Shown: positions 49,487 to 64,000 of the stretch, piece by piece
How the letters are laid out: the number at the start of each line of letters is the position of its first letter
How positions within the stretch are numbered: position 1 is the first letter of the stretch
Source: Lichenihabitans psoromatis
Lineage (GTDB): Bacteria > Pseudomonadota > Alphaproteobacteria > Rhizobiales > Beijerinckiaceae
Reading direction: 5' to 3'
Length of the DNA stretch: 64,000 nt
Assembly: GCF_004323635.1 (NCBI RefSeq)
Contig: NZ_CP036515.1
Location: forward strand, 2,357,501 to 2,421,500
Translations under genes and position numbers: made by a program
The notes under the pieces: generated by a model
What the model saw: only the letters and a program-made list of their open reading frames with translations
What the model was told of the DNA's origin: nothing
The model's database searches: none

Positions 49487-50251
49487 ATGATCGCCGCCGC
49501 TTCCAGATCGCATCTGAATTTCGCCGATCGCCTGGTTCATCTTCTCGACTATGTGGAATACCGACGGGCCGACACACCGGACCAACGCGACGCGATTTAC
49601 CGACTTCGATACGATGCCTACCTCAAAGAGGGGATGACCAAAGCCGACGCCAGGGGCATGTTGGTCGATCGGTACGACGATGCCGCCAATGCATGGACCT
49701 TCGGGCTCTATGTCGACGACCAGCTTTCGAGCTCGATCCGGATCAATGTTGCATCCGAGCGGCTCGGCCCTTCGCCAGCCACGGCGTTTTTCCCAGACCT
49801 GCTCGGACCCGACCTCGCGGCCGGCCGCGTCATCGTCGACCCGAACCGTCTTGTGACCGAACACACGGCCGCGCGTGCGATGCCGGAGCTTGCCTATCTC
49901 ACGGTTCGGCTCGGTTACGTCGCGGCTTGGCACTTTGACGCCGACGTGGTCACCGCGACCGTGCGGGCCGAACATCAAGCCTTCTACAAACGGGTGTTCG
50001 GGCTGCGCTCAGAATGTCTGCCGCGCACGATCCCGCCGATCGAAAAGCCATTCTGCCTGATGAGCTTTCGCGAGGCCTCGATGGTGTCCATCATGAACCG
50101 CTATCCCTGCTTCAGGTCGACCGAACAGGAGCGCTCTGCCTTGTTCGACAGGCCGGATGGGGCGCGCATCGACCTGACGCCGCTTGACCTTACGACGCCC
50201 GCCCTCGCCGAAACACGCCTCCTGCAGGCCGCAAAGGTCGCGGCTCGATAG
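49487..50251 (+). CDS. FeeM-type N-acyl amino acid synthase / LuxI-like GNAT-fold protein
   Basis: 254 residues with GGGAG before the ATG. The core matches the FeeM/autoinducer-synthase-like acyltransferase fold: EYRRADTPDQRDAIYRLRYD, AYLKEGMTKADARGMLVDRY, YVDDQLSSSIRINV, VDPNRLVTEHTAARAMPELA, and the closing EHQAFYKRVFGLRSECLPRT. FeeM-type enzymes join a fatty acyl chain from acyl-ACP to an amino acid such as Tyr. Close relatives occur in many Hyphomicrobiales, function mostly unknown. Divergent from the GGDEF-EAL gene with 190 bases between. Confidence 0.78.
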   Translation: MIAAASRSHLNFADRLVHLLDYVEYRRADTPDQRDAIYRLRYDAYLKEGMTKADARGMLVDRYDDAANAWTFGLYVDDQLSSSIRINVASERLGPSPATAFFPDLLGPDLAAGRVIVDPNRLVTEHTAARAMPELAYLTVRLGYVAAWHFDADVVTATVRAEHQAFYKRVFGLRSECLPRTIPPIEKPFCLMSFREASMVSIMNRYPCFRSTEQERSALFDRPDGARIDLTPLDLTTPALAETRLLQAAKVAAR

Positions 50252-52338: not shown

Positions 52339-54195
52339 ATGATCGAAGCGCTCAGTACGGTTCTCAGCCGAGTTCGCGAGCGAGCCGGGCCCTTTCGTCA
52401 CCTCGTTTCGCTCTTTCGTCTCGCCTGGACCGCAAGCCCATCGCTGGCGACGGCCAGCATGGTGCTTCGCTTGTTGCGAGCCATCCTGCCGGTCCTCGGG
52501 CTTTTCGTGGGTAAACTCATCATCGATGGCGTGGTGGCACAGTCCCGTCTGCCGTCGTTGGGCGATAATCCGTTTGTCTGGTTCCAATCCGGACGGCTCG
52601 ATGGGCTGCTGGTTCTGCTCGGTCTCGAATTCGGTCTCGCGATCGCATCGACGGCGCTTGGTCGAGCGAGCGGCTTGGCCGACAGCCTTCTGTCCGAGCG
52701 CTACAGCAATCTGGCCAGCGTCCGTCTCATGGATCATGCCGCGACGCTCGATCTCGAGCAGTTGGAGAGCAGCGCCGAGCAGGACAGGCTCGATCGGGCG
52801 CGCCGACAGGTCACCGGCCGAACCGCGCTTCTGTCACAGCTCTTCGCGCAAGCGCAGGACGTTCTCACGGTCTTGTCGCTCGCGGCCGGATTGGTGGCCT
52901 ATGCGCCCTGGCTGATCGCGCTCTTGTGCCTGGCGCTCATCCCCGGCTTTTTGGGCGAAAAGCATTTTAACGCGCAGAGCTATCGGCTCGACTACTTTCG
53001 GACTCCGGAACGTCGACAGCTCGACTACCTGCGCTATCTCGGGTCCAGCACCGAAACCGCCAAGGAGATCAAACTCTTCGGTCTGAGTGGCTTCCTGGCC
53101 GAGCGGTTTGGACGTTTCGCCGATGCGATGTATGCGGAAAATAGTGGCCTGGCGGTCCGTCGGGCCGCTTGGGGCGTGCTCTTCGCCGGCCTTGGCTCGC
53201 TCGCTTATTACCTCGCCTATTTCGTCATCGTTTGGCGAACAGTGTCGGGTCACTTCAGCCTCGGCGATCTCACGTTTCTGGCGGGCTCCTTCTTGCGTTT
53301 ACGGGGGCTTCTCGAAGGCTTGTTGCTCGGTTTCTCCCAGATCGCGGGGCAGGTGCTTCACCTGGCCGACCTGTTTTCCTTCTTCGAGCTTCGCCCCGGC
53401 ATCGTATCGGCGCCGGCCGCCCTCCCGGTACCGCGTCCGCTTCGTACCGGCTTTCGCTTCGAAGATGTCGGCTACCGCTACGCCGGATCGGAGACCTGGG
53501 CTGTGCGGCATCTCGATCTTACCTTGGCGAGCGGCGAGGTTCTGGCGCTCGTCGGCCAAAACGGAGCCGGGAAGACCACGATCGTCAAGCTGCTGGCCCG
53601 TCTCTACGATCCCACCGAAGGGCGTATTCTGCTCGATGGCGTCGATCTGCGGGACTATGATCTCGCCGAGCTTCGGGCTCGCATCGGCGTCATCTTTCAA
53701 GACTTCGTCCGCTTCCATTTCACCGCGGGCGAGAATATCGGGGTCGGGCGGATCGATGCGCTCGAGGATCGGGACCGGATCGAGGCGGCAGCCTCGCGCA
53801 GTCTCGCCGACCAACTCGTCGGGCGCTTGCCCATGCGCTACGATCAGCCTCTCGGGCGGCGGTTCAACAACGGCGTCGATCTGTCGGGTGGCGAATGGCA
53901 GAAGATCGCCATTGCTCGCGCCTATATGCGCGAGGCCGATGTCCTCATTCTCGATGAGCCCACCGCCGCTCTCGATGCGCGTGCCGAATATGAGGTCTTC
54001 GAGCGGTTTCGCGACCTCAGTCACGGGCGAACCGCCGTCTTGATTTCGCACCGCTTTTCGACCGTCCGGATGGCGGATCGGATCGTCGTGCTGGGTGGTG
54101 GCCGCGTCATCGAAAGCGGCAGCCATGCGGCCTTGGTGGCGGCCGGAGGCGCCTATGCCGAACTTTTCGACCTTCAGGCCTCCGGCTATCGCTGA
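52339..54195 (+). CDS. ABC exporter, fused permease/ATPase half-transporter
   Basis: 618 residues. The N-terminal 340 residues hold about six membrane helices; the C-terminal ATPase has Walker A LVGQNGAGKTTIVKLL, Q-loop GVIFQDFVRFHF, signature LSGGEWQKIAIARAY, Walker B VLILDEPTAALD and H-loop AVLISHRFST. Half-transporters of this kind homodimerise to export lipids, peptides or small molecules. No partner or substrate gene next to it apart from the aldo/keto reductase converging downstream. Confidence 0.9.
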   Translation: MIEALSTVLSRVRERAGPFRHLVSLFRLAWTASPSLATASMVLRLLRAILPVLGLFVGKLIIDGVVAQSRLPSLGDNPFVWFQSGRLDGLLVLLGLEFGLAIASTALGRASGLADSLLSERYSNLASVRLMDHAATLDLEQLESSAEQDRLDRARRQVTGRTALLSQLFAQAQDVLTVLSLAAGLVAYAPWLIALLCLALIPGFLGEKHFNAQSYRLDYFRTPERRQLDYLRYLGSSTETAKEIKLFGLSGFLAERFGRFADAMYAENSGLAVRRAAWGVLFAGLGSLAYYLAYFVIVWRTVSGHFSLGDLTFLAGSFLRLRGLLEGLLLGFSQIAGQVLHLADLFSFFELRPGIVSAPAALPVPRPLRTGFRFEDVGYRYAGSETWAVRHLDLTLASGEVLALVGQNGAGKTTIVKLLARLYDPTEGRILLDGVDLRDYDLAELRARIGVIFQDFVRFHFTAGENIGVGRIDALEDRDRIEAAASRSLADQLVGRLPMRYDQPLGRRFNNGVDLSGGEWQKIAIARAYMREADVLILDEPTAALDARAEYEVFERFRDLSHGRTAVLISHRFSTVRMADRIVVLGGGRVIESGSHAALVAAGGAYAELFDLQASGYR

Positions 54196-54204
54196 CCGTT
54201 GGGC

Positions 54205-55260
54205 TTAGATTGTCGTCAGCCGATGACTCTCCGCCACCTGCTTGCGGCGAAACTCGCCCTGCCGTTCAAACATCCAGCCCGGATATTCCGGTGGCAGCGC
54301 GCTGACCTTGCCCAGAACCTCGAGCTCCGTCGCGTCGAAAGAGACCTTTGTGGCCGCCAGATTATCCTCAAGTTGATCGACGCGCTTGGCGCCGATGATC
54401 ACGCTCATAACCTGGCGTTGGTGCAGCAACCACGCCAGAGCGATCTGCGCTACCGAGACGCCTTTCGCCTCGGCGATCGGCCGCATGGCGTCGATCACGT
54501 CGTAGGCCTTGTCGCGGTTGACGGGCGGAAAGTCGAAACTCTGCCGGCGGCTGCCTTGCTCGCCATTCTGGTCGCGGCCATATTTGCCGGACAGCAGGCC
54601 ACCAGCCAGCGGGCTCCAGACCATCAGGCCCATCCCCTCGGACGCCATCATCGGCACCAGTTCACGCTCGAGATCACGCGCCGCAACCGTGTAATAGGCT
54701 TGCAGCGTCTCGAAACGCGCGAGGTTGAGCCGCTCCGCGATGCCGAGCGCCTTGGCGATCTGCCAAGCCGCCCAGTTGGACACGCCGATGTAACGCACGT
54801 GACCATGCTGCACCAGGATGTCGAGCGCCCGCATGGTCTCCTCGATCGGGGTTGCCGGATCGAAGCCATGGATCTGATAGAGATCGATATAGTCGGTCTG
54901 CAGGCGCTTGAGGCTGGCCTTCACGCCCTCGAGAATATGCGTGCGGGAATTGCCGCGTGTGTTGGGCCCGTCACCGGTCGGACCGAAGACCTTGGTGGCC
55001 AGAACGACGTCGTGACGCGGCACCTTCAGATTATGCAACGCCTGTCCGGTAATCTCTTCCGACAGCCCGGCCGAGTAAACGTCCGCCGTATCGATGAAAT
55101 TGATCCCGTGATCGAGCGCCGTCTTGACGATCGTTTCGGCTTCCTGCTGCTGCAGAGAGCCGATTTTGCTCCAGACCTCTCCTGTCCCGCCGAACGTCAT
55201 GGTGCCGAGGCAGAGTTCCGAGACGAAGAGGCCGGTGCGGCCCAATTGATTATAGCGCAT
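54205..55260 (-). CDS. Aldo/keto reductase
   Basis: 351 residues from ATG 55260 (MRYNQLGRTGLFVSEL). The catalytic tetrad is present: Asp and Tyr in GINFIDTADVYSAG, Lys in VVLATKVFG, His in LYQIHGFDP. C-terminal NADPH-binding IGAKRVDQLEDNLAATKVSF. Of the AKR11/14-like group (YghZ/general stress protein 69 type) reducing aldehydes and ketones; substrate unknown. Longer in-frame starts read into unrelated sequence and are rejected. Confidence 0.9.
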   Translation of the reverse strand: MRYNQLGRTGLFVSELCLGTMTFGGTGEVWSKIGSLQQQEAETIVKTALDHGINFIDTADVYSAGLSEEITGQALHNLKVPRHDVVLATKVFGPTGDGPNTRGNSRTHILEGVKASLKRLQTDYIDLYQIHGFDPATPIEETMRALDILVQHGHVRYIGVSNWAAWQIAKALGIAERLNLARFETLQAYYTVAARDLERELVPMMASEGMGLMVWSPLAGGLLSGKYGRDQNGEQGSRRQSFDFPPVNRDKAYDVIDAMRPIAEAKGVSVAQIALAWLLHQRQVMSVIIGAKRVDQLEDNLAATKVSFDATELEVLGKVSALPPEYPGWMFERQGEFRRKQVAESHRLTTI

Positions 55261-55502
55261 GAGCGTTGATGTCCGTGATGGTGAAGCCGAAGGAGCCGGT
55301 GTGGCGTCGGTCGACGACGCCGGGTCCTCAGCATCCACCTGTGGCAGGTGGTCTCGATTGGAAGAGCAAAGTCGGACGAGATCGAAGCGCGTCGCTGGCC
55401 GATCTCGAGGAACCACTCTCGCCGATAATAGACGGGGCCGCCGAGAAAGGCGACCCGACCGCTATCAATCTGGCAACGTCGGCGCCGCGCCGCGCGGTAC
55501 GA

Positions 55503-57761
55503 TCAGCCGAGCAGCGGCGTCAGCAACGCCTGCTGCCGGGCGAGTTCCTCCGCCAGCGGTCGATAGGGCTCCCGGGTTGCGGTCCCGGCCGCGAAATCCA
55601 GCAAACCATTGTGGCAATGCCGCTCGTCGTCCCAGCCCGGATGATTGATGACCGGATAGACGCAAAGGCCTTCGACCGGGACGCCCGCCGCCAGTGCGGC
55701 GCGAACCTCGGACGCCACCATGGCAAACCAGGACGGGCGCCGATCCGCTTCGGTGCCGGTTTCGGCCACGAAGATCGGGCGACCGTAGCGAGCATAGGTT
55801 TCGGCCAGCAGGTAGCGGAATGGTTTGTATAGCGGGTGTCCGACGTCGATCGGCGGTCCCCCGTGGATCCATTGATTGTTGAAGTAGTAATTGACGCCGA
55901 CGACGTCGAGGTAGCGTGGCGCGCCGCCGAGTTGCGGCCACGCCACCCCAGCCAGCATGTCCCAGGCCTGAAACTGTGCCTGCCGATGCCCCTCCGCCGC
56001 GCCACGCTCATGGGGTCGTTGCGGGTCGGTGATGACGTTGATGACCGGGTCGGCGTGGATGAACCGCGCGCGTGGATCGACCTCCCAGATCGCGTCCATG
56101 GCGGCAATCGAGGCGCGGACCAGTTGCGTCTTCAACTCGAAGCCGCGTCCCCGTGCGAACGGGTTGAGATAAGCCGCGTCGCCGCCGCCCCAAGAGAAGA
56201 ACGAGATCTCGTTGACGGGTGCGTAGAACGGCACCGCATCGCTTTCCTGCCGCACCACTGCGGCCAGCGCTTTTGCAAAGCGGGCGAAGCGGGTCACGAA
56301 TTCCGGCCGCCAGAGGTCGATGTCGTCCGGCCAGCCGTAATGCAGCACGTCCCAGATCACCTGGGTTCCTGTGTCTCGCGCCGCCCGAAGCATGGGCAGC
56401 ACGCTCGTCCAGTCATACTGGCCGGGGCTTCGCTCGATCAGATGCCACCGAAAGCCATCGCGCACCGTGCGGATACCGTAGCCCGCAAGGGCACGGTAGT
56501 CGGAGGCCGCGTATCGATCGTGATTAATCGCGCCGATCATGTCGAGCCGTCGCCCGGTGCCGAGACGGTGGGTCGAGGCTTCGAAGCCGCCTTGCATGAA
56601 GCTGGCGAACAGGCCGGACCGCAGAGGAGGGGCGCGCTCGGCCAGCACATCGTCGAAGAGGGCTCGCCATTGGGGCACCACAGCCGCGACGGCATAGTCG
56701 CGCTCGACCTTGGCGCGCAGGCGATCCCCCAGGCTCCGCCGCATAGCGTCGTCATCGACGAGGCGCAGCATCGCGGCCGCAACGGCCTCGGGGTCTTCAT
56801 GCGCCACGAACAAGCCCGAGACGCCGTCTTCGATTTGCTCCAGCGCACCATTGTCGGGGGTCGCGATGACCGGGAGCCGCGCCGCCCCAGCCTCTGCAAT
56901 GACGTGCGGCATCCCTTCGTCGCGGGACAGCCAGACGAAGATGTCGAGACCGGCCAGGAGAGCCGGAACATCCGGTCTGTCGCCAAGGAACGTGAGCGCC
57001 GTGCCGAGCCCGAGTTGCAGCGCCAGCGCGCGAAGCGTGTCGGCATAGTCGGGCATGAAGGCGTCTGGACCGCCAATCACGACGAAGCGTGTGTTCGGGC
57101 GGGTTCGCCGCACGATGGCGGCCGCTTGGATGAAATCCTCGACCCGCTTCTTGCGGTCGAGCCGGCCGACCCAGCCGATCACGTGGTCGTCGTCGATCGC
57201 CCCAACGCTCGCCCGGGCCGCTGCTCTGTCGGACGGCCGAAACTCGGTGAGATCGACCATCGAGGGGATCTCGAGGGCATGGTGCGGCCGCCCCGGCATC
57301 CGCGCTGCGGCAGCGTCCCGAATGGTGCGACACACGCCGACATAGCGGGATGTGAGATGTTTCGGCCCCTCGAGCGCTTCCGACACGAGGCCGCCATGCT
57401 CAACTAAGGGCGGGCGATGATATAGCCGTTCGAGCGCCGGATAGACGTCAGCGACATTCTGCGACGACACCACGAGATCGTAGGACGGGATCTTCGAGGC
57501 CAGATAGCCGACCGTATCCTCGAACGAGAGGCCATAGGGCGTCTGGTCGACATCGATGCCAAGCGCCCGCAATTGGTCATGGGTCTGTTCGGGCATGCCC
57601 TCCTTGCGGAAGCAGGCCACGACATCGATGCGGTAGCGGCGCGGATCGAGATTGCGGGCGAGAAGCCGAATTTCGGTTTCCTCGCCGCCGACAACCAGCC
57701 AGGCGAAGACGAAGAGGATGCGGATCGGCCCCTCCGGCTGGTTGTCGGGAGGGCTCATCAA
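55503..57761 (-). CDS. Fusion: GT4-family glycosyltransferase + clan-A glycoside hydrolase
   Basis: 752 residues. Residues 1-380 are a GT-B glycosyltransferase (ILFVFAWLVVGGEETEIRLL; IGWVGRLDRKKRVEDFIQAA; DEGMPHVIAEAGAARLPVIA). Residues about 390-752 form a TIM-barrel glycoside hydrolase like GH1/GH5: GIRTVRDGFRWHLIERSPGQ, acid/base Glu518 in APVNEISFF, nucleophile Glu667 in FVAETGTEAD, and VVGVNYYFNNQW between. Both active sites look intact. The hydrolase could trim or transglycosylate the glycan the transferase builds. Its ATG overlaps the stop of the upstream dehydrogenase (ATGA). No signal peptide, so cytoplasmic. Confidence 0.82.
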   Translation of the reverse strand: MMSPPDNQPEGPIRILFVFAWLVVGGEETEIRLLARNLDPRRYRIDVVACFRKEGMPEQTHDQLRALGIDVDQTPYGLSFEDTVGYLASKIPSYDLVVSSQNVADVYPALERLYHRPPLVEHGGLVSEALEGPKHLTSRYVGVCRTIRDAAAARMPGRPHHALEIPSMVDLTEFRPSDRAAARASVGAIDDDHVIGWVGRLDRKKRVEDFIQAAAIVRRTRPNTRFVVIGGPDAFMPDYADTLRALALQLGLGTALTFLGDRPDVPALLAGLDIFVWLSRDEGMPHVIAEAGAARLPVIATPDNGALEQIEDGVSGLFVAHEDPEAVAAAMLRLVDDDAMRRSLGDRLRAKVERDYAVAAVVPQWRALFDDVLAERAPPLRSGLFASFMQGGFEASTHRLGTGRRLDMIGAINHDRYAASDYRALAGYGIRTVRDGFRWHLIERSPGQYDWTSVLPMLRAARDTGTQVIWDVLHYGWPDDIDLWRPEFVTRFARFAKALAAVVRQESDAVPFYAPVNEISFFSWGGGDAAYLNPFARGRGFELKTQLVRASIAAMDAIWEVDPRARFIHADPVINVITDPQRPHERGAAEGHRQAQFQAWDMLAGVAWPQLGGAPRYLDVVGVNYYFNNQWIHGGPPIDVGHPLYKPFRYLLAETYARYGRPIFVAETGTEADRRPSWFAMVASEVRAALAAGVPVEGLCVYPVINHPGWDDERHCHNGLLDFAAGTATREPYRPLAEELARQQALLTPLLG

Positions 57762-58858
57762 TCAACGCCCTTGAAGACGATCTGCAAAAAGTCGGGCCGT
57801 GTTTCGACCAGCGTCTTGAGGAAGGCCGGACCCTCGTCGAACGGCACCACATGGGTGATCATATGGTCCGCCACGTCACCGCCGACGTCGTCGAGGAGGT
57901 CGATCGTCTCGAGAGCCAGACGCCGCCGATCCCAGGCAAAGCCAAGGCCGCGCGGCACGCGGCCGATCTGAGCGCAACGGATCGACAGACCGTTGTGGTG
58001 GAACTCCTCACCAAGCCGCACCGCATCCGCGCCGCCCTGATAGAAGGCGAGATCGATCACCGTGCCTTGCGGCCGCAAGGCACGCAGCGCCGCCCGCAGA
58101 CTTTCGGCGTGAGCGCGCGTCTGGAACGCGAAATCGGCGCCGCGATCATTGCCGCCATGGTGCCAGCGATCTTTCGCGATGCGAACCGCATCCTCCTCGG
58201 TCACCGCTTCGATGCCGAGCGCCTCGGCCTTCTCGCGGCGATAAGCGGACGGATCGGCGATGAGCACTTCGGCCGCGCCGCTGCGCTGGGCGAAGAGCGC
58301 GGTCAGCAGGCCGACGACGCCCGCACCGATCACCACAACGGGGCGACCTGCAAGACCGATGCCGAGCGCGGCAACGTTGGTGCCGAAGATCTCCGCATCG
58401 GCATGCAAGATTCCGTTGGCCGCGATCGGGCCCATCTGGGCCACGTAGATGCCGAGGATGGGATCCATGTCGTCGGGGAGCTTGATCAGCGTATCGTGAA
58501 AGGGGTTGGCCGTATGGCCGCTCTTATGCGCGTATGTCGAGGCCACGATATCGCCCGCATGAAAGCCGGGGCTTCGTGATTCCGTGACGCGCGCCACCTC
58601 CATGTAGCCCATGAACGGCACGGGATAGTGCATACCGGCTTCGCCCGGCACGAAAAGCCCGCGCTCCCCATCCCAACGTGAGTGGAGATAGGGGTTGGTG
58701 CCTTTGACGAAGGTGAGTTCGGTGCCGGCCGAAAAACCCGTGTAGAGGGTTTCGAGCCGCACGCCGCCGTCACCGGGTGGGCCCTCCTCATAATCGAGGA
58801 AATAGGCTTGGCCGGGGTGTTCGACGCCGAGAGAACGGATGCGGCGATGGTCAGACAT
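57758..58858 (-). CDS. Zinc-type medium-chain dehydrogenase (sugar-linked context)
   Basis: 366 residues from ATG 58858 (MSDHRRIRSLGVEHPGQAYF). MDR fold: YTGFSAGTELTFVKGTNPYL, MGYMEVARVTESRSPGFHAG, and NAD(P) motif VVVIGAGVVGLLTALFAQRS. The structural zinc loop is absent, as in sugar/polyol and bacteriochlorophyllide-like dehydrogenases. It overlaps the upstream glycosyltransferase/Gfo gene by 8 bases and the downstream fusion by 4, a tightly coupled set, so the substrate is probably a nucleotide sugar or a polyol tied to the glycan. Confidence 0.8.
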   Translation of the reverse strand: MSDHRRIRSLGVEHPGQAYFLDYEEGPPGDGGVRLETLYTGFSAGTELTFVKGTNPYLHSRWDGERGLFVPGEAGMHYPVPFMGYMEVARVTESRSPGFHAGDIVASTYAHKSGHTANPFHDTLIKLPDDMDPILGIYVAQMGPIAANGILHADAEIFGTNVAALGIGLAGRPVVVIGAGVVGLLTALFAQRSGAAEVLIADPSAYRREKAEALGIEAVTEEDAVRIAKDRWHHGGNDRGADFAFQTRAHAESLRAALRALRPQGTVIDLAFYQGGADAVRLGEEFHHNGLSIRCAQIGRVPRGLGFAWDRRRLALETIDLLDDVGGDVADHMITHVVPFDEGPAFLKTLVETRPDFLQIVFKGVD

Positions 58859-60974
58859 GGGCGGTCTCACGGACGGAGGAGCGAAGATCGACGGGTTGGC
58901 CGCTGGCGGCTGAGCGCTGGATCGCGAGTGCGACCCGGTGGGTCGCGAGGGCTTCGGGGTAGGGGCAACGAATGTGGTTCGGGCCACCGCGCACCGCATC
59001 GATGAAGTCACGATCCTCGCGCCACACGGGGTCGCCCTCGGCGTGGCGGACGGGGCGTCCACGGCCGACATCCACCATCAGGTCATGGTCGGTGAGTTCG
59101 ATCGCGAGGCCATCGCCGAAGATGTGGAGGCCGATGCGATGGCCCCAGCGGAGCAGGCAGGTCGAGGCGAGGTTGGCGACGGCGCCGGATGCGAACTGAA
59201 GGGTCGCGGTGCTGGCGGTCGCGACGTCGAGGCCCGGAAAGTCATCGCGCGTTGTATATTCCGCCAAGCCGAAAACCCGATCGACGTCGCCGACGAGATA
59301 GCGTGCCAGATCGACGATATGGGTGGTCTGCTCGACCATCTGTCCGCCCGACTGGTCCTGCTTCCACCACCATTGCGGCGGCGGGGTGCCATCGAGCCAA
59401 TAACCCGACAGAAGGCGAGCCGGGTTATCGGCCAGGATATGCTTCGCCTCGTCCACGGTGTCGAGATAGCGCCAGTGATAACCGCAGCCGGTGATGAGCC
59501 CGGCCGCCGCGACCTCCCGCCCGATCGCCTCGGCGATCTCGATGTCGAGCGCCAGCGGCTTTTCGACGAAAAACGGCAGCCCTTTGGCGATGGCGGCCCG
59601 CTCGGGTGCGCCATGCGCGAAAGGCGGCACGCAGATGAAGACGGCATCGAGCTGTTCGGCCGCCAGCATCGCATCGACATCGCCGTAGCTTCGTGCCCCA
59701 AAACGCTCGGCCGCCTCGGTCGCGCGCTCCCGCGCCGGGTCGGCGAAGGCCGCAATCGTGACGTCGTCGAAACCGGCCAGCACACCGAGGTGTCGCTGCG
59801 CGATGCCTCCGGCGCCGATGAAGCCGATACGGGTCTTGTCGGGTTTCATGCCGTCCATCCTGTCTGCCGTGGTGGCGGACCGCGGCACGACGCCGAGGCC
59901 CTGGTAAAGTTGTGCCATGTCGGCCCCCATGCGGGCTGCCGTGAAAGAGGTCTGAAAGCGCTTGCGGGCCGCCCGTCCGTACCGGGCCGCCCGTGCTGGA
60001 TCCTCCAGCATGGCCTGGATGGCGGCCGCGAGGCGAGCCGGCTCGCCGGGGGGGACGAGCAGGCCTGTCACGCCATCGACGGCAGCCTCGTCGGTGCCGC
60101 CGACATTCGTCGCGACCACCGGCACCCCGGCCGCCATGGCTTCGAGGATCGTCAGCGGCAGTCCTTCGAAGCGGGAGGGAAGGACCAGGAGATCGGCAGC
60201 CCCGAGCAGGTCGGGTATGTCGTCCCTTTGGCCGAGCAGACGCACGGAGGCGGAAAGGTTCTGTGCGGCGATCTGCATTGCGATCGTCGCTTCGAGCGGC
60301 CCAGACCCGGCCAGAACGAAACACGCGTCCGGAAAACGCGCCAGAACCGCCGGCACCGCCTCGATCAGCGTCGCGTGATCCTTCTGGGCGGTGAATCGCG
60401 CGGCTGTCAGCAGCATCGGCAGTTGCGCCGATAGGCCAAGGTCGGCGCGGACGGCGGCGCGCGAGCGCGTGGCGGTTCGCGGATCATGGCCATTACGGAT
60501 CACCGCGAGGCGGTCATTCGGCACGCCCACGTCCCGATAGCTGCGGGCCGAGGCCTCGGACACGCAGACGATGCGGTCCACCAAGGCGATCCCATCGCGG
60601 TGGAGGTGGCGCTGCGCCGCATCGGTGATCATGTCGGGCAAATGTTCGGTACGGACCACGGCTGGAATGCCGGCCGCGCGGCCCATCGCGGCGAGGGCGT
60701 GGCCTTCCCATCCAATGCCGGCATGCACGTGCAGCAAAGCAATGCCGTCCTGGTGAAACCAATCGATCATGGCGGCCTCGTCCGGCGGCAGCAGACGCAG
60801 GCCGACGCCGAGTCTGGCGCCCCGATCGAGCAAGATCCGGCCGCCCGGACTGGGCGGGCAGGCGAGCACCACGTCGTAATCCCGCTTCAACGCCCCCGCC
60901 AAGGCGAGCATATGCTCGCCGACGCCGGAGGGCTCGAGGCTGTCGGTCGCGAGGCAGATCGAGCCGATCAGCAC
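58851..60974 (-). CDS. Fusion: GT4-family glycosyltransferase + Gfo/Idh/MocA sugar dehydrogenase
   Basis: 707 residues. Residues 1-370 are a GT4 glycosyltransferase with LEPSGVGEHMLALAGALK, AARFTAQKDHATLIEA and the EX7E pair at Glu270/Glu278 (RFEGLPLTILEAM). Residues about 377-707 are a Gfo/Idh/MocA oxidoreductase: TRIGFIGAGGIAQRHLGVLA, EKPLALD at 471-477 with the essential Lys, and GYHWRYLDT. Both halves are complete and joined by a short linker (RSATTADRMDGMKPD). The enzyme may oxidise or epimerise a sugar and transfer the same or a related sugar. An internal ATG before the second domain could also give a separate product. Confidence 0.82.
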   Translation of the reverse strand: MLIGSICLATDSLEPSGVGEHMLALAGALKRDYDVVLACPPSPGGRILLDRGARLGVGLRLLPPDEAAMIDWFHQDGIALLHVHAGIGWEGHALAAMGRAAGIPAVVRTEHLPDMITDAAQRHLHRDGIALVDRIVCVSEASARSYRDVGVPNDRLAVIRNGHDPRTATRSRAAVRADLGLSAQLPMLLTAARFTAQKDHATLIEAVPAVLARFPDACFVLAGSGPLEATIAMQIAAQNLSASVRLLGQRDDIPDLLGAADLLVLPSRFEGLPLTILEAMAAGVPVVATNVGGTDEAAVDGVTGLLVPPGEPARLAAAIQAMLEDPARAARYGRAARKRFQTSFTAARMGADMAQLYQGLGVVPRSATTADRMDGMKPDKTRIGFIGAGGIAQRHLGVLAGFDDVTIAAFADPARERATEAAERFGARSYGDVDAMLAAEQLDAVFICVPPFAHGAPERAAIAKGLPFFVEKPLALDIEIAEAIGREVAAAGLITGCGYHWRYLDTVDEAKHILADNPARLLSGYWLDGTPPPQWWWKQDQSGGQMVEQTTHIVDLARYLVGDVDRVFGLAEYTTRDDFPGLDVATASTATLQFASGAVANLASTCLLRWGHRIGLHIFGDGLAIELTDHDLMVDVGRGRPVRHAEGDPVWREDRDFIDAVRGGPNHIRCPYPEALATHRVALAIQRSAASGQPVDLRSSVRETAHV

Positions 60975-61018
60975 GGGCGTGAGGTGACCCGACGGGCCGA
61001 CGCGTCCATCACCGACCG

Positions 61019-63442
61019 TCAGACCATGGCCGAAGTCGATTGCAACGCTGTCTTGACCGGCATCGTGCCGCGCTCCGTCAAGCGGCGGTACGTCGCCAGC
61101 GCCTGGCCGACGACCTGATCCATGTTGTAGTAGCGGTAGGTCGCGAGCCGGCCGACGAAACTCACGTTCGGCAAGGCCTGCGCCAACGCCTCGTAGCGCT
61201 TGTACAAAGCCTGATTGGCCGGCCGCAGGATTGGGTAATAGGGGTCGCCCTCGGCCTGCGGGATCTCGTAGCTGATGCTGGTCTGCGGGTGGGACTGTCC
61301 CGTGAGATGCTTGTATTCGGTGATGCGTGTGTAGGGCACCGACTCGGACGGATAGTTGATGACGCCGACCGGCTGCAACCGGCGCCGGTTCAGCGTTTCG
61401 TGCCGAAATTCCAGGCTGCGATAGGGCAGGCGGCCGAAGCGGAAGTCGAAATATTCGTCGATAGGCCCGGTGAAGATGGTGTGGTCGGCCACCACGGCGT
61501 CCCAGACGTCGCGATATTCGACGCCAAGTTCAACATCGATCAGCGGGTGATCGAGCATCGCCTCGAACATGCGCGTATAACCGTCGGCCGGCATCGCCTG
61601 GAACGTATCCTGGAAATAGCGATCGTCCAGACCTGTCCGTGTCGGCACGCGCTGCGTCACCGTGCGGTCGAGGTCGGAGGGGTCCAATCCCCATTGCTTG
61701 CGGGTATAGCCGCGGAAAAATGTCTCGTAGAGGTCGCGCCCGACTTGCGACACGACTGCATCCTCGGCCGTGCGGATCGTGGGCAGTGGCTCGGCTCGGC
61801 CTTGCAGAAAGGCGGCTGCCTCCTCGTCGGTGGCGAGCGACAGACCGTAGAGACCGTTCAGCGTCGTCCGGTTGATCGGCATCGGCAACAGCTTGCCGGC
61901 ACCGACATCGGCCAGAACGCGGTGCTCGTAGGGGCGCCACCGGGTAAAGCGAGACAGATAGGTGGAGACGTCCGCGCTATTGGTATGGAAGATGTGTGGC
62001 CCATAGCGATGCACGAGGATGCCGGCGGCATCGAGGTGATCGTAGGCATTGCCGGCGATATGCGGGCGTCGGTCGACGACCAGGACGCGCTGACCCGAGC
62101 CCGCTGCGAGACGTTCGGCGAGGACCGCGCCCGCAAAGCCAGCCCCGACGATCAAAGCGTCATAAGGCTTCGGGCAGTTGGAGGAGCGAACCGTCGGGCG
62201 GAACACGAGTGATGCCGGTGCGAGCGACGAAGGTCGGGCGATCGGCATGGCGCGACGTTCGATCGCCTCGTCGACCAACCCGGCCATCCGCTTGAAGGTT
62301 TTGTCCCACGACCCCTGCGCCAGAACGGTATCGACGGCCGGAAGCCAAGACGCAACGTCGCGGGCTCGCGCAAGCTGGTCGGCGCAAGCCGCAAGGAACG
62401 TGTCGGGCGTCCCGGCGATTGCCACGCCTGCGAGATCGCCATAATGGCGCACCACGTCGGCGATCGGCGTGGACACCACCGGACGGCCGCCGGCGAGATA
62501 TTCGGGTGTCTTGGTGGGGCTGATGAAGGTGGTGGAGTCATTCAGCGCGAATGGCATCAGTGCCACATCCCACCCGCTCAAATAGGCCGGGAGATCGTCA
62601 TAAGACTTCGGGCCGAGGTAGTGGATATTGGGCAGGCGCGGCAGGTTGGCGGGATCGATCTTCACAATCGGCCCAACCACGACGACATGCCACTCCGGCC
62701 GCGACTCCGCGACCTGGCGGACGAGATCGAGGTCCATCCGCTCGTCGACGACGCCGAAGAAGCCGAAGCGCGGATGTGGCATACCGGCCTGATCAGCAGG
62801 TTCGGGCAGTTTCCCGTTACGGGCGCGCTGGAAATGGGCGACGTCAACGCTCGAGGCGAAGAGGTGAATGTTATCGTGCAGCCCGCGCTTCGCCTCATAG
62901 AGGCTCCGGCCGCCGGTGAACACGACGTCGGCGCGCTCGATCAGTTCGGCCTCGAGCATCGGAAGCTCGGCCGGGGCGGAGCGGAATGCCGAGAGTTCGT
63001 CCATACAATCGTAGACGATCGCGGCCGCCTCGAGATGTCGGGCGATCGGAAACATCATCGGCGCGTAGAACCAAAGAAGCGGCAGTCCGCCACCATTTTG
63101 CGCCACCAGCATATCGAGCAGACTCGATAAGGCTTTGTCGCGTTCGGCGGCACTCCACCAATGAGGATAGCGGGGCCGAAGCGCAGTGACGTCCTGCTCC
63201 GGAAAGGGGTGATGTTCGAGATAAGCGCGGTGATGATCACACGGGATCGGTTCTTCGAAAAAGAACACGCGGCGACCCTTTGCGAAGCGCGACATCAGGT
63301 GCTGCGGACGCTGGAACACGAAGTCCCACCGCAAATGGGAGAAGCAGATCAAAGGCCCGGGTCGTTGAGCGATGTCACGATCGTTGGCCGCCGCGAGCGG
63401 GATATCGTGAGCGTCGAAGGACGGCGGACCAAAAGCCTCCAT
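61019..63442 (-). CDS. Fusion: GT-B glycosyltransferase + UDP-galactopyranose mutase
   Basis: 807 residues. Residues 1-400 form a GT-B glycosyltransferase (LICFSHLRWDFVFQRPQHLM; IVYDCMDELSAF; SPTKTPEYLAGGRPVVSTPI). Residues about 425-807 are UDP-galactopyranose mutase: FAD motif ALIVGAGFAGAVLAERLAAG, HIAGNAYDHLD, RYGPHIFHTNS, PMPINRTTLNGLYG, FFRGYTRKQWGLDPSDLD, and YRSLEFRHETL. The mutase makes UDP-galactofuranose, which the attached transferase may use directly. Such fusions occur in Alphaproteobacteria but are not the norm (mutase alone is about 370-390 residues). Confidence 0.88.
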   Translation of the reverse strand: MEAFGPPSFDAHDIPLAAANDRDIAQRPGPLICFSHLRWDFVFQRPQHLMSRFAKGRRVFFFEEPIPCDHHRAYLEHHPFPEQDVTALRPRYPHWWSAAERDKALSSLLDMLVAQNGGGLPLLWFYAPMMFPIARHLEAAAIVYDCMDELSAFRSAPAELPMLEAELIERADVVFTGGRSLYEAKRGLHDNIHLFASSVDVAHFQRARNGKLPEPADQAGMPHPRFGFFGVVDERMDLDLVRQVAESRPEWHVVVVGPIVKIDPANLPRLPNIHYLGPKSYDDLPAYLSGWDVALMPFALNDSTTFISPTKTPEYLAGGRPVVSTPIADVVRHYGDLAGVAIAGTPDTFLAACADQLARARDVASWLPAVDTVLAQGSWDKTFKRMAGLVDEAIERRAMPIARPSSLAPASLVFRPTVRSSNCPKPYDALIVGAGFAGAVLAERLAAGSGQRVLVVDRRPHIAGNAYDHLDAAGILVHRYGPHIFHTNSADVSTYLSRFTRWRPYEHRVLADVGAGKLLPMPINRTTLNGLYGLSLATDEEAAAFLQGRAEPLPTIRTAEDAVVSQVGRDLYETFFRGYTRKQWGLDPSDLDRTVTQRVPTRTGLDDRYFQDTFQAMPADGYTRMFEAMLDHPLIDVELGVEYRDVWDAVVADHTIFTGPIDEYFDFRFGRLPYRSLEFRHETLNRRRLQPVGVINYPSESVPYTRITEYKHLTGQSHPQTSISYEIPQAEGDPYYPILRPANQALYKRYEALAQALPNVSFVGRLATYRYYNMDQVVGQALATYRRLTERGTMPVKTALQSTSAMV

Positions 63443-63515
63443 GAAATTTCCTTAAATATGTTGCGCAATACATTGGGTAGGAAGCAAACAACGAACCAAC
63501 GATCTGGCAGCAGCG

Positions 63516-64000
63516 TCACGGCGACGCGGCCAGCGCCGGCCAGAGAGCCCGTCCCTTCGGTGTTTCGATGATGAGGGACGCCAGCCGGTCGACACTGTGC
63601 GGCCACGTCCATCGTCGCTCTACGACGTCTCGCGGCCGAATTCGTTCACATGAATCAACAAGATTGAGCAAAGCTGTGCCGAAGGCGTCCGGCCCGGCAA
63701 TGCGCCCCGTCTCCGGCAGGATATACTCGAGGCCACAGCGCAACCCCGCATTGGCCAATACGGGAAGACCCGCCAGCATATATTCGGTGATGATCGCTGG
63801 TGCGCCATCGTCGACGCCGCACACGACGCCGACCCGCGCCATGTTCATGAGACGATTGACCTCCTCGAAGCCGACGCCCGGCGGCCCGACGAAGTCGATA
63901 TCGAGCCGAAGGTCCGCGGCCTGGCGACGAAGATCGTCGCTCATCTCTCCATAACCGAAGACGCAGAGCGCCTTCAGCGGGCGCGGCGAGCGTGCCAAAG
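63516..64000 (-). CDS. Glycosyltransferase, C-terminal part (continues beyond the window)
   Basis: About 161 residues visible; the frame is open at the right edge. Sequence is the C-terminal half of a GT-B enzyme: LKALCVFGYGEMSDDLRRQA, ANMARVGVVCGVDDGAPAII-like core with VDDGAPAIITEYMLAGLPVL (donor-binding region) and a final helical tail. The codon at 63998 (TTG) could be read as a start, but the preceding domain is certainly missing, so this is a partial gene. Same strand and locus as the fusion glycosyltransferases. Confidence 0.7.
   Translation of the reverse strand, partial: LARSPRPLKALCVFGYGEMSDDLRRQAADLRLDIDFVGPPGVGFEEVNRLMNMARVGVVCGVDDGAPAIITEYMLAGLPVLANAGLRCGLEYILPETGRIAGPDAFGTALLNLVDSCERIRPRDVVERRWTWPHSVDRLASLIIETPKGRALWPALAASP

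Follow-up and report, generated by a model that had tools for sequence, protein, structure and literature searches.

Mammals do not make galactofuranose (Galf), and the uses that bacteria have for it are known from few systems. In one described system, the galactan locus pamABC(DE) of Kingella kingae, PamB is a UDP-galactopyranose mutase (UGM) with activity shown in vitro, and the UGM gene stands beside transferases that use UDP-Galf (PMC12269835, accessible part). Here we describe an operon, in a 64,000-nucleotide stretch of Lichenihabitans psoromatis DNA (contig NZ_CP036515.1, positions 2,357,501 to 2,421,500; hereafter the window), that likewise places UGM beside glycosyltransferases (GTs), one of which is predicted to use UDP-Galf. 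Unlike the operon, the Kingella locus has separate genes with transferases predicted to be GT111 and GT2, and its five genes, as set out in the accessible part of the report, include no partner like the enzymes of glycoside hydrolase (GH) family GH1, no Gfo/Idh/MocA dehydrogenase and no MDR-family dehydrogenase (PMC12269835). A second comparison is with SFR2, a plant galactolipid galactosyltransferase, which resembles by description the role that we propose for the GH1-like domain of the operon, being a GH1-type enzyme that acts as a biosynthetic transferase; unlike that domain, it is a plant membrane-lipid enzyme, unlinked to UGM or a GT in the accessible part of its source (PMC11525325). UGM operons, GT4 enzymes and GH1 enzymes are already known. 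Searches of an open-access library, outside which most subscription papers lie, listed no description of a conserved trio of GT, UGM and GH1-like enzyme that is repeatedly fused and also exists as a single chain.

On balance, the best explanation of the whole is that the operon probably makes a small Galf-containing glycan or glycoconjugate in the cytosol, with a GT/UGM/GH module as its core. The operon is a run of five genes on the minus strand at the end of the window, encoding a GT, a GT-UGM fusion, a GT-Gfo/Idh/MocA fusion, an MDR dehydrogenase and a GT-GH fusion. From 5' to 3' these are named GT1, GTb-GLF (GLF being UGM), GTc-GFO, MDR and GTd-GH:

63516..64000, minus strand: 3' part of GT1, a GT-B glycosyltransferase (open reading frame of 413 amino acids)
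61019..63442, minus strand: GTb-GLF fusion, 807 amino acids; TuaH-like glycosyltransferase (62228-63442) and UDP-galactopyranose mutase (61022-62170); Pfam matches GLF, E 3.2e-77, and Glyco_trans_1_4, E 7.9e-9
58851..60974, minus strand: GTc-GFO fusion, 707 amino acids; GT4 (59880-60974) and Gfo/Idh/MocA dehydrogenase (58854-59846); Pfam matches PF00534, E 2.1e-40, and PF01408, E 8.7e-23
57758..58858, minus strand: MDR-family dehydrogenase, 366 amino acids; PF00107, E 4.3e-12
55503..57761, minus strand: GTd-GH fusion, 752 amino acids; GT4 (56637-57761; PF00534, E 8.9e-35) and GH1-like (beta/alpha)8 domain (55506-56609)

GT1 runs past the window to about 64757 (L002 11017-12258) and has only a weak match, to a PglH-like GT (E 6e-4). 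The frames are open and the gene junctions tight; at 57758-57761 the overlap spans 4 bases if the start is TTG and 1 base if it is the ATG next to it. The GT, UGM and Gfo/Idh/MocA parts are confirmed by Pfam and NCBIfam. The layout given in a first-pass annotation of this DNA, five minus-strand genes with three GT fusions, holds. None of the three fusion proteins contains a hydrophobic segment.

Searching species genomes with a profile of the GH domain gave at least 560 relatives, and eight domains were mapped on the best 80 loci; these were picked by likeness to the GH domain, so close relatives are over-represented. The conserved core is made up of the TuaH-like GT, UGM and the GH1-like enzyme; Gfo/Idh and MDR are add-ons to it. 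Of the 80 loci, 55 had the expanded cassette (GTb, GTc, GFO, MDR, GTd and GH), 43 of them with UGM and 53 with GT1. Another 18 loci had GTb and GH without the add-ons (UGM in 15 of 18), and 7 were partial, several of them at contig ends. The core trio without add-ons was found in Pseudomonas/Stutzerimonas, Azospirillum, Skermanella, Microcoleus, an acidobacterium, Chryseobacterium (on a plasmid) and Comamonas.

UGM also accompanies the GH domain at the level of genomes. Among 297 genomes of the window's order, GH was found in 22 and UGM in 38; UGM was present in 20 of the 22 GH-positive genomes compared to 18 of the 275 GH-negative genomes (Fisher p 1.1e-18, with kinship ignored throughout this set), and at the genus level in 9 of 11 GH-positive compared to 10 of 112 GH-negative. 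A direct check for UGM in 20 genomes or records was positive for 18, the negatives being an Anaerolineae metagenome-assembled genome (MAG) and a lone plasmid record. All 12 genomes with an expanded cassette lacking UGM have a single unfused UGM elsewhere, in a frame of 386-427 amino acids. This rules out a requirement for UGM inside the operon, and therefore tethering is not required.

More compact forms of the module exist. GH is fused to GTb in Comamonas, and a 1251-residue plasmid protein of Pantoea agglomerans (L141 11992-15747) consists of GH, GTb and an FAD domain. A protein search with the whole one-chain protein gave at least 5339 relatives, and the 120 listed (P0121-P0240; 99-100% coverage) come from many gamma- and betaproteobacteria, including Pantoea, Erwinia, Mixta, Enterobacter, Duganella, Janthinobacterium, Shewanella and others. 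All 120 have the GH and GTb domains, with the GH acid/base Glu in 119 (one has Asp) and the nucleophile Glu in 120; none gave a bacterial UGM match. They are named at source as NAD(P)-binding protein, amine oxidase, FAD-dependent oxidoreductase or protoporphyrinogen oxidase, and as UDP-galactopyranose mutase in four rows. The Pantoea FAD domain likewise had no match to the bacterial UGM model; 14 of its 15 PDB matches are UGMs (best 4dsg, E 2.3e-45), which we take to be the trypanosome and Aspergillus enzymes, of the eukaryotic class. Because bacterial and eukaryotic UGMs share 14-18% identity (PMC3624792, accessible part), one UGM class seems to have been swapped for the other in the same role, the class of the one-chain FAD domain having been examined in one protein. 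This apparent exchange is our best argument that Galf is central to the module, and together with the co-occurrence it supports the galactofuranose-related product that the first-pass annotation had proposed.

An ABC exporter often adjoins the core, as in Azospirillum, Skermanella, Stutzerimonas, Pseudomonas and four of the examined genomes of the window's order; its best matches are MsbA-like models, yet under their cut-offs. The exporter and the UGM data bear on an alternative in which the genes form a pathway to a glycolipid or small-molecule glycoside, the GH1-like enzyme shifting sugar between lipid- or aglycone-linked acceptors as SFR2 does, with Galf optional in the final product. The small number of genes and the exporter of MsbA-like/ABCB kind beside the simpler module fit such a pathway, as does SFR2 itself, a GH1-classified enzyme with transferase activity (PMC11525325, accessible part). 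However, most genomes with the module also have UGM (20 of 22), the apparent class exchange suggests that Galf matters and the operon includes no lipid-specific enzyme; we regard a glycolipid pathway as quite improbable.

Domain order is conserved and fusion is recurrent across the 80 loci. GTd and GH are fused in all 58 loci holding both, GTc and GFO in 49 of 56, GTb and GLF in 45 of 58, GFO and MDR in 30 of 56, and GT1 and GTb in 1 of 53, where a single 1221-residue frame comprises GT1, GTb and UGM (L059 1980-5645, Rhizobium sp. CFBP 8762). Unfused orthologues are present as well: in L132, which has the expanded cassette, GTb and UGM are separate, and within the window's own genus GTb and GLF are fused in G001, G002, G003 and G005 and are neighbouring separate genes in G004. 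The UGM of G005 has the same sequence and contig position as that of the Lichenifustis flavocetrariae locus L085, which makes the source of the window a relative of this lichen bacterium. On a UGM tree built by a quick method from 73 rows, with L132 left out, the fused state requires two changes (one for the main alphaproteobacterial group and one for Azospirillum) compared to 17.8 with shuffled labels; gain and loss of fusion are indistinguishable on this tree. That relatives carry the domains as separate genes could be taken to mean that the fusions are assembly errors or missed stop codons, an idea to which we give almost no credence, as independent genomes, and complete plasmids of Rhizobiaceae among them, carry the same fused frames. 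The recurrence counts rule out an artefact origin, and the fusions are genuine.

Fusion had also been taken to imply substrate channelling. Channelling is possible, and it is not needed because unfused and relocated versions persist. The related claim that donor synthesis is joined to transfer is plausible for the GT-UGM protein only; neither the Gfo/Idh domain nor the GH domain has to be a donor-making enzyme.

By sequence, the UGM domain is a UDP-galactopyranose mutase of the bacterial class, with predicted activity. It scores 373.7 bits against TIGR00031 (cut-off 303.75) and 259.3 bits against PF03275 (cut-off 26.3), and its nearest solved relative, 3hdq (536 bits), which we take to be the Deinococcus radiodurans UGM, is by contrast single-domain in its PDB record. 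The FAD-binding GxGxxG motif, here G9-A-G-F-x-G14, and the residues W160, R174, Y185, R282, Y347 and D351 are kept in at least 97% of 73 rows, so that the Arg, Tyr and Trp residues of the active site are conserved. GTb scores 79.5 bits against the TuaH model (cut-off 550), and a sequence comparison with solved structures gave no relative for it at E 0.01; by fold, the GTd model comes nearest to Anabaena HepE (4xsu). Bacillus subtilis TuaH and HepE are thus the nearest named relatives of GTb (by model) and GTd (by fold), and fusion to UGM or GH was seen for neither name, unlike GTb and GTd. GTc and GTd match GT4-type Pfam domains and conserve both Glu of the GT4 E-x7-E motif; in GT1 and GTb the second Glu alone is conserved, and GT1 has Asp in place of the first. 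GFO conserves E-K-P and a His. MDR apparently lacks zinc ligands, as S-A-G-T-E and G-Y-M-E, kept in at least 97% of 60 rows, stand where we take the Cys/His ligand positions to be; its alignment to a solved relative is significant in the Rossmann part only.

The GH domain matches GH1 enzymes by profile and by model, and it has the GH1 fold, (beta/alpha)8 with one catalytic Glu on strand 4 and the other on strand 7. Glu134 and Glu283 are invariant in 49 of 49 rows. The domain resembles the GH1 enzymes of CAZy in its fold, in both catalytic glutamates and in the Asn that precedes the acid/base Glu. It differs from them in its low identity (14-20% in the rows shown), its lack of a match to the Pfam GH1 model PF00232 at E 0.001, its fusion to a GT4 and its last-strand motif. 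In the GH1 motif W-x-x-x-D-N-F-E-W, the Glu near strand 8 is Gly in 47 of 49 rows and Glu in 2, and the leading Trp is Tyr in all 49. No export signal is evident in the GH domain. We read it as a biosynthetic transglycosidase or a trimming enzyme.

In the pathway that we propose, the UGM domain would convert UDP-Galp to UDP-Galf, and the attached TuaH-like GTb would transfer Galf onto an acceptor. The GH1-like domain may re-transfer or trim a sugar of a cytosolic intermediate by a retaining two-glutamate mechanism. We put transglycosylation at about an even chance and favour it over trimming hydrolysis, the lesser candidate, or some other reaction. GT1, GTc and GTd, as lineage-specific additions to the core, would add further sugars, and the Gfo/Idh/MocA and MDR pair would oxidise, reduce or epimerise one sugar. 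The fusions would fix the stoichiometry and proximity of enzymes that already cooperate, and the cell can presumably do without them, given that versions with separate genes survive. The operon encodes no export function; simpler relatives often have a neighbouring ABC exporter. A broader possibility, which we hold tentatively, is a new kind of self-contained Galf synthase, spread over several bacterial phyla. In it the GH1-like enzyme would be an obligatory biosynthetic transglycosidase acting with UGM and a transferase, encoded as three genes, as pairwise fusions like those of the operon or as one three-enzyme polypeptide, and with either of two distantly related UGM classes, to make an undescribed Galf glycoconjugate. 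We give this possibility slightly less weight because the assignment of the one-chain proteins to a UGM class comes from a single protein.

Several observations weigh against a Galf-containing product made by this module, in addition to the neglect of kinship in the co-occurrence statistics. L119 has GH without GTb in the 10 kb upstream, and G262, from outside the 80-locus sample, has GTd without GH. In G001 the GT-UGM fusion stands alone in a 19-kb stretch from which the other parts are absent. The 2 GH-positive genomes of the 22 that are without UGM are G242 and G281, the latter on a contig that ends beside GTb, and the Anaerolineae MAG of L133 is also without UGM. The GT1 N-terminus is mildly hydrophobic (19-residue mean 1.84), and MDR has an internal stretch with a 19-residue mean of 2.01. 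We came across no biochemical work on the GTs or the GH that make up the module.

The gene content also bears on whether this is an ordinary exopolysaccharide, O-antigen or capsule cluster, making a lipid-linked repeat with export and polymerisation machinery elsewhere and GH as a clean-up hydrolase of the sort present in other polysaccharide operons. GT4, UGM and Gfo/Idh genes are generally known to be common in such clusters, and HepE, nearest to the GTd model, is presumably a heterocyst envelope polysaccharide enzyme. In Kingella, pamABC combines a UGM and Galf transferases to make a galactan (PMC12269835, accessible part). However, the five operon genes include no polymerase, flippase or initiating transferase, and none is named in the annotated flanks of three relatives; the GH, joined to a cytosolic transferase, shows no evident signal for export. 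We consider such a cluster unlikely, and the capsule or holdfast-like polymer suggested in the first-pass annotation finds no support in the five genes. These genes include no exporter either.

Adjoining the operon are an ABC transporter with a fused ATPase (52339-54195, plus strand) and an aldo/keto reductase (54205-55416, minus strand). Neither is supported as an operon partner: the ABC gene is 33-36% identical to part of the module's ABC, and the mapped loci show no recurring linkage; the ABC gene is on the strand opposite to the operon. The window genome's best homologue of the module's ABC (46% identity) lies far from the operon. At 49487-50251 (plus strand), a 254-residue frame gives the sequence impression of an N-acyl amino acid/autoinducer-type acyltransferase.

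GH1-type domains were seen in other fusions. On Deinococcus gobiensis plasmid P1 (L140 11944-14292), a GH1-like domain is fused to an acyl-CoA-dehydrogenase-like (ACAD) domain and is followed by genes for a PIG-L deacetylase, a NodS-like methyltransferase, a GT2, GTb and UGM. Homologues of the ACAD, PIG-L, NodS-like and GT2 genes are clustered in the window genome, far from the operon (L179 6982-10445; C1, about 3.997-4.000 Mb), and ACAD homologues show a modest co-occurrence with GH, being present in 8 of 22 GH-positive and 18 of 275 GH-negative genomes (p 1.6e-4, kinship ignored). GH1-RmlD fusions, in which another GH1-type domain is joined to a nucleotide-sugar enzyme, lie beside or near GTb and UGM in Microcoleus vaginatus (L100 16900-19152), L171, L175 and L176; the Microcoleus protein matches PF00232. 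The window genome gave only separate partial matches to this Microcoleus protein.

With its glycosidase-fold partner and its natural one-chain form, this widespread module suggests that a class of Galf glycan has yet to be described, and it provides a ready reagent for finding that glycan. It could also show whether enzymes with a hydrolase fold serve, inside bacteria, to build sugars instead of breaking them.

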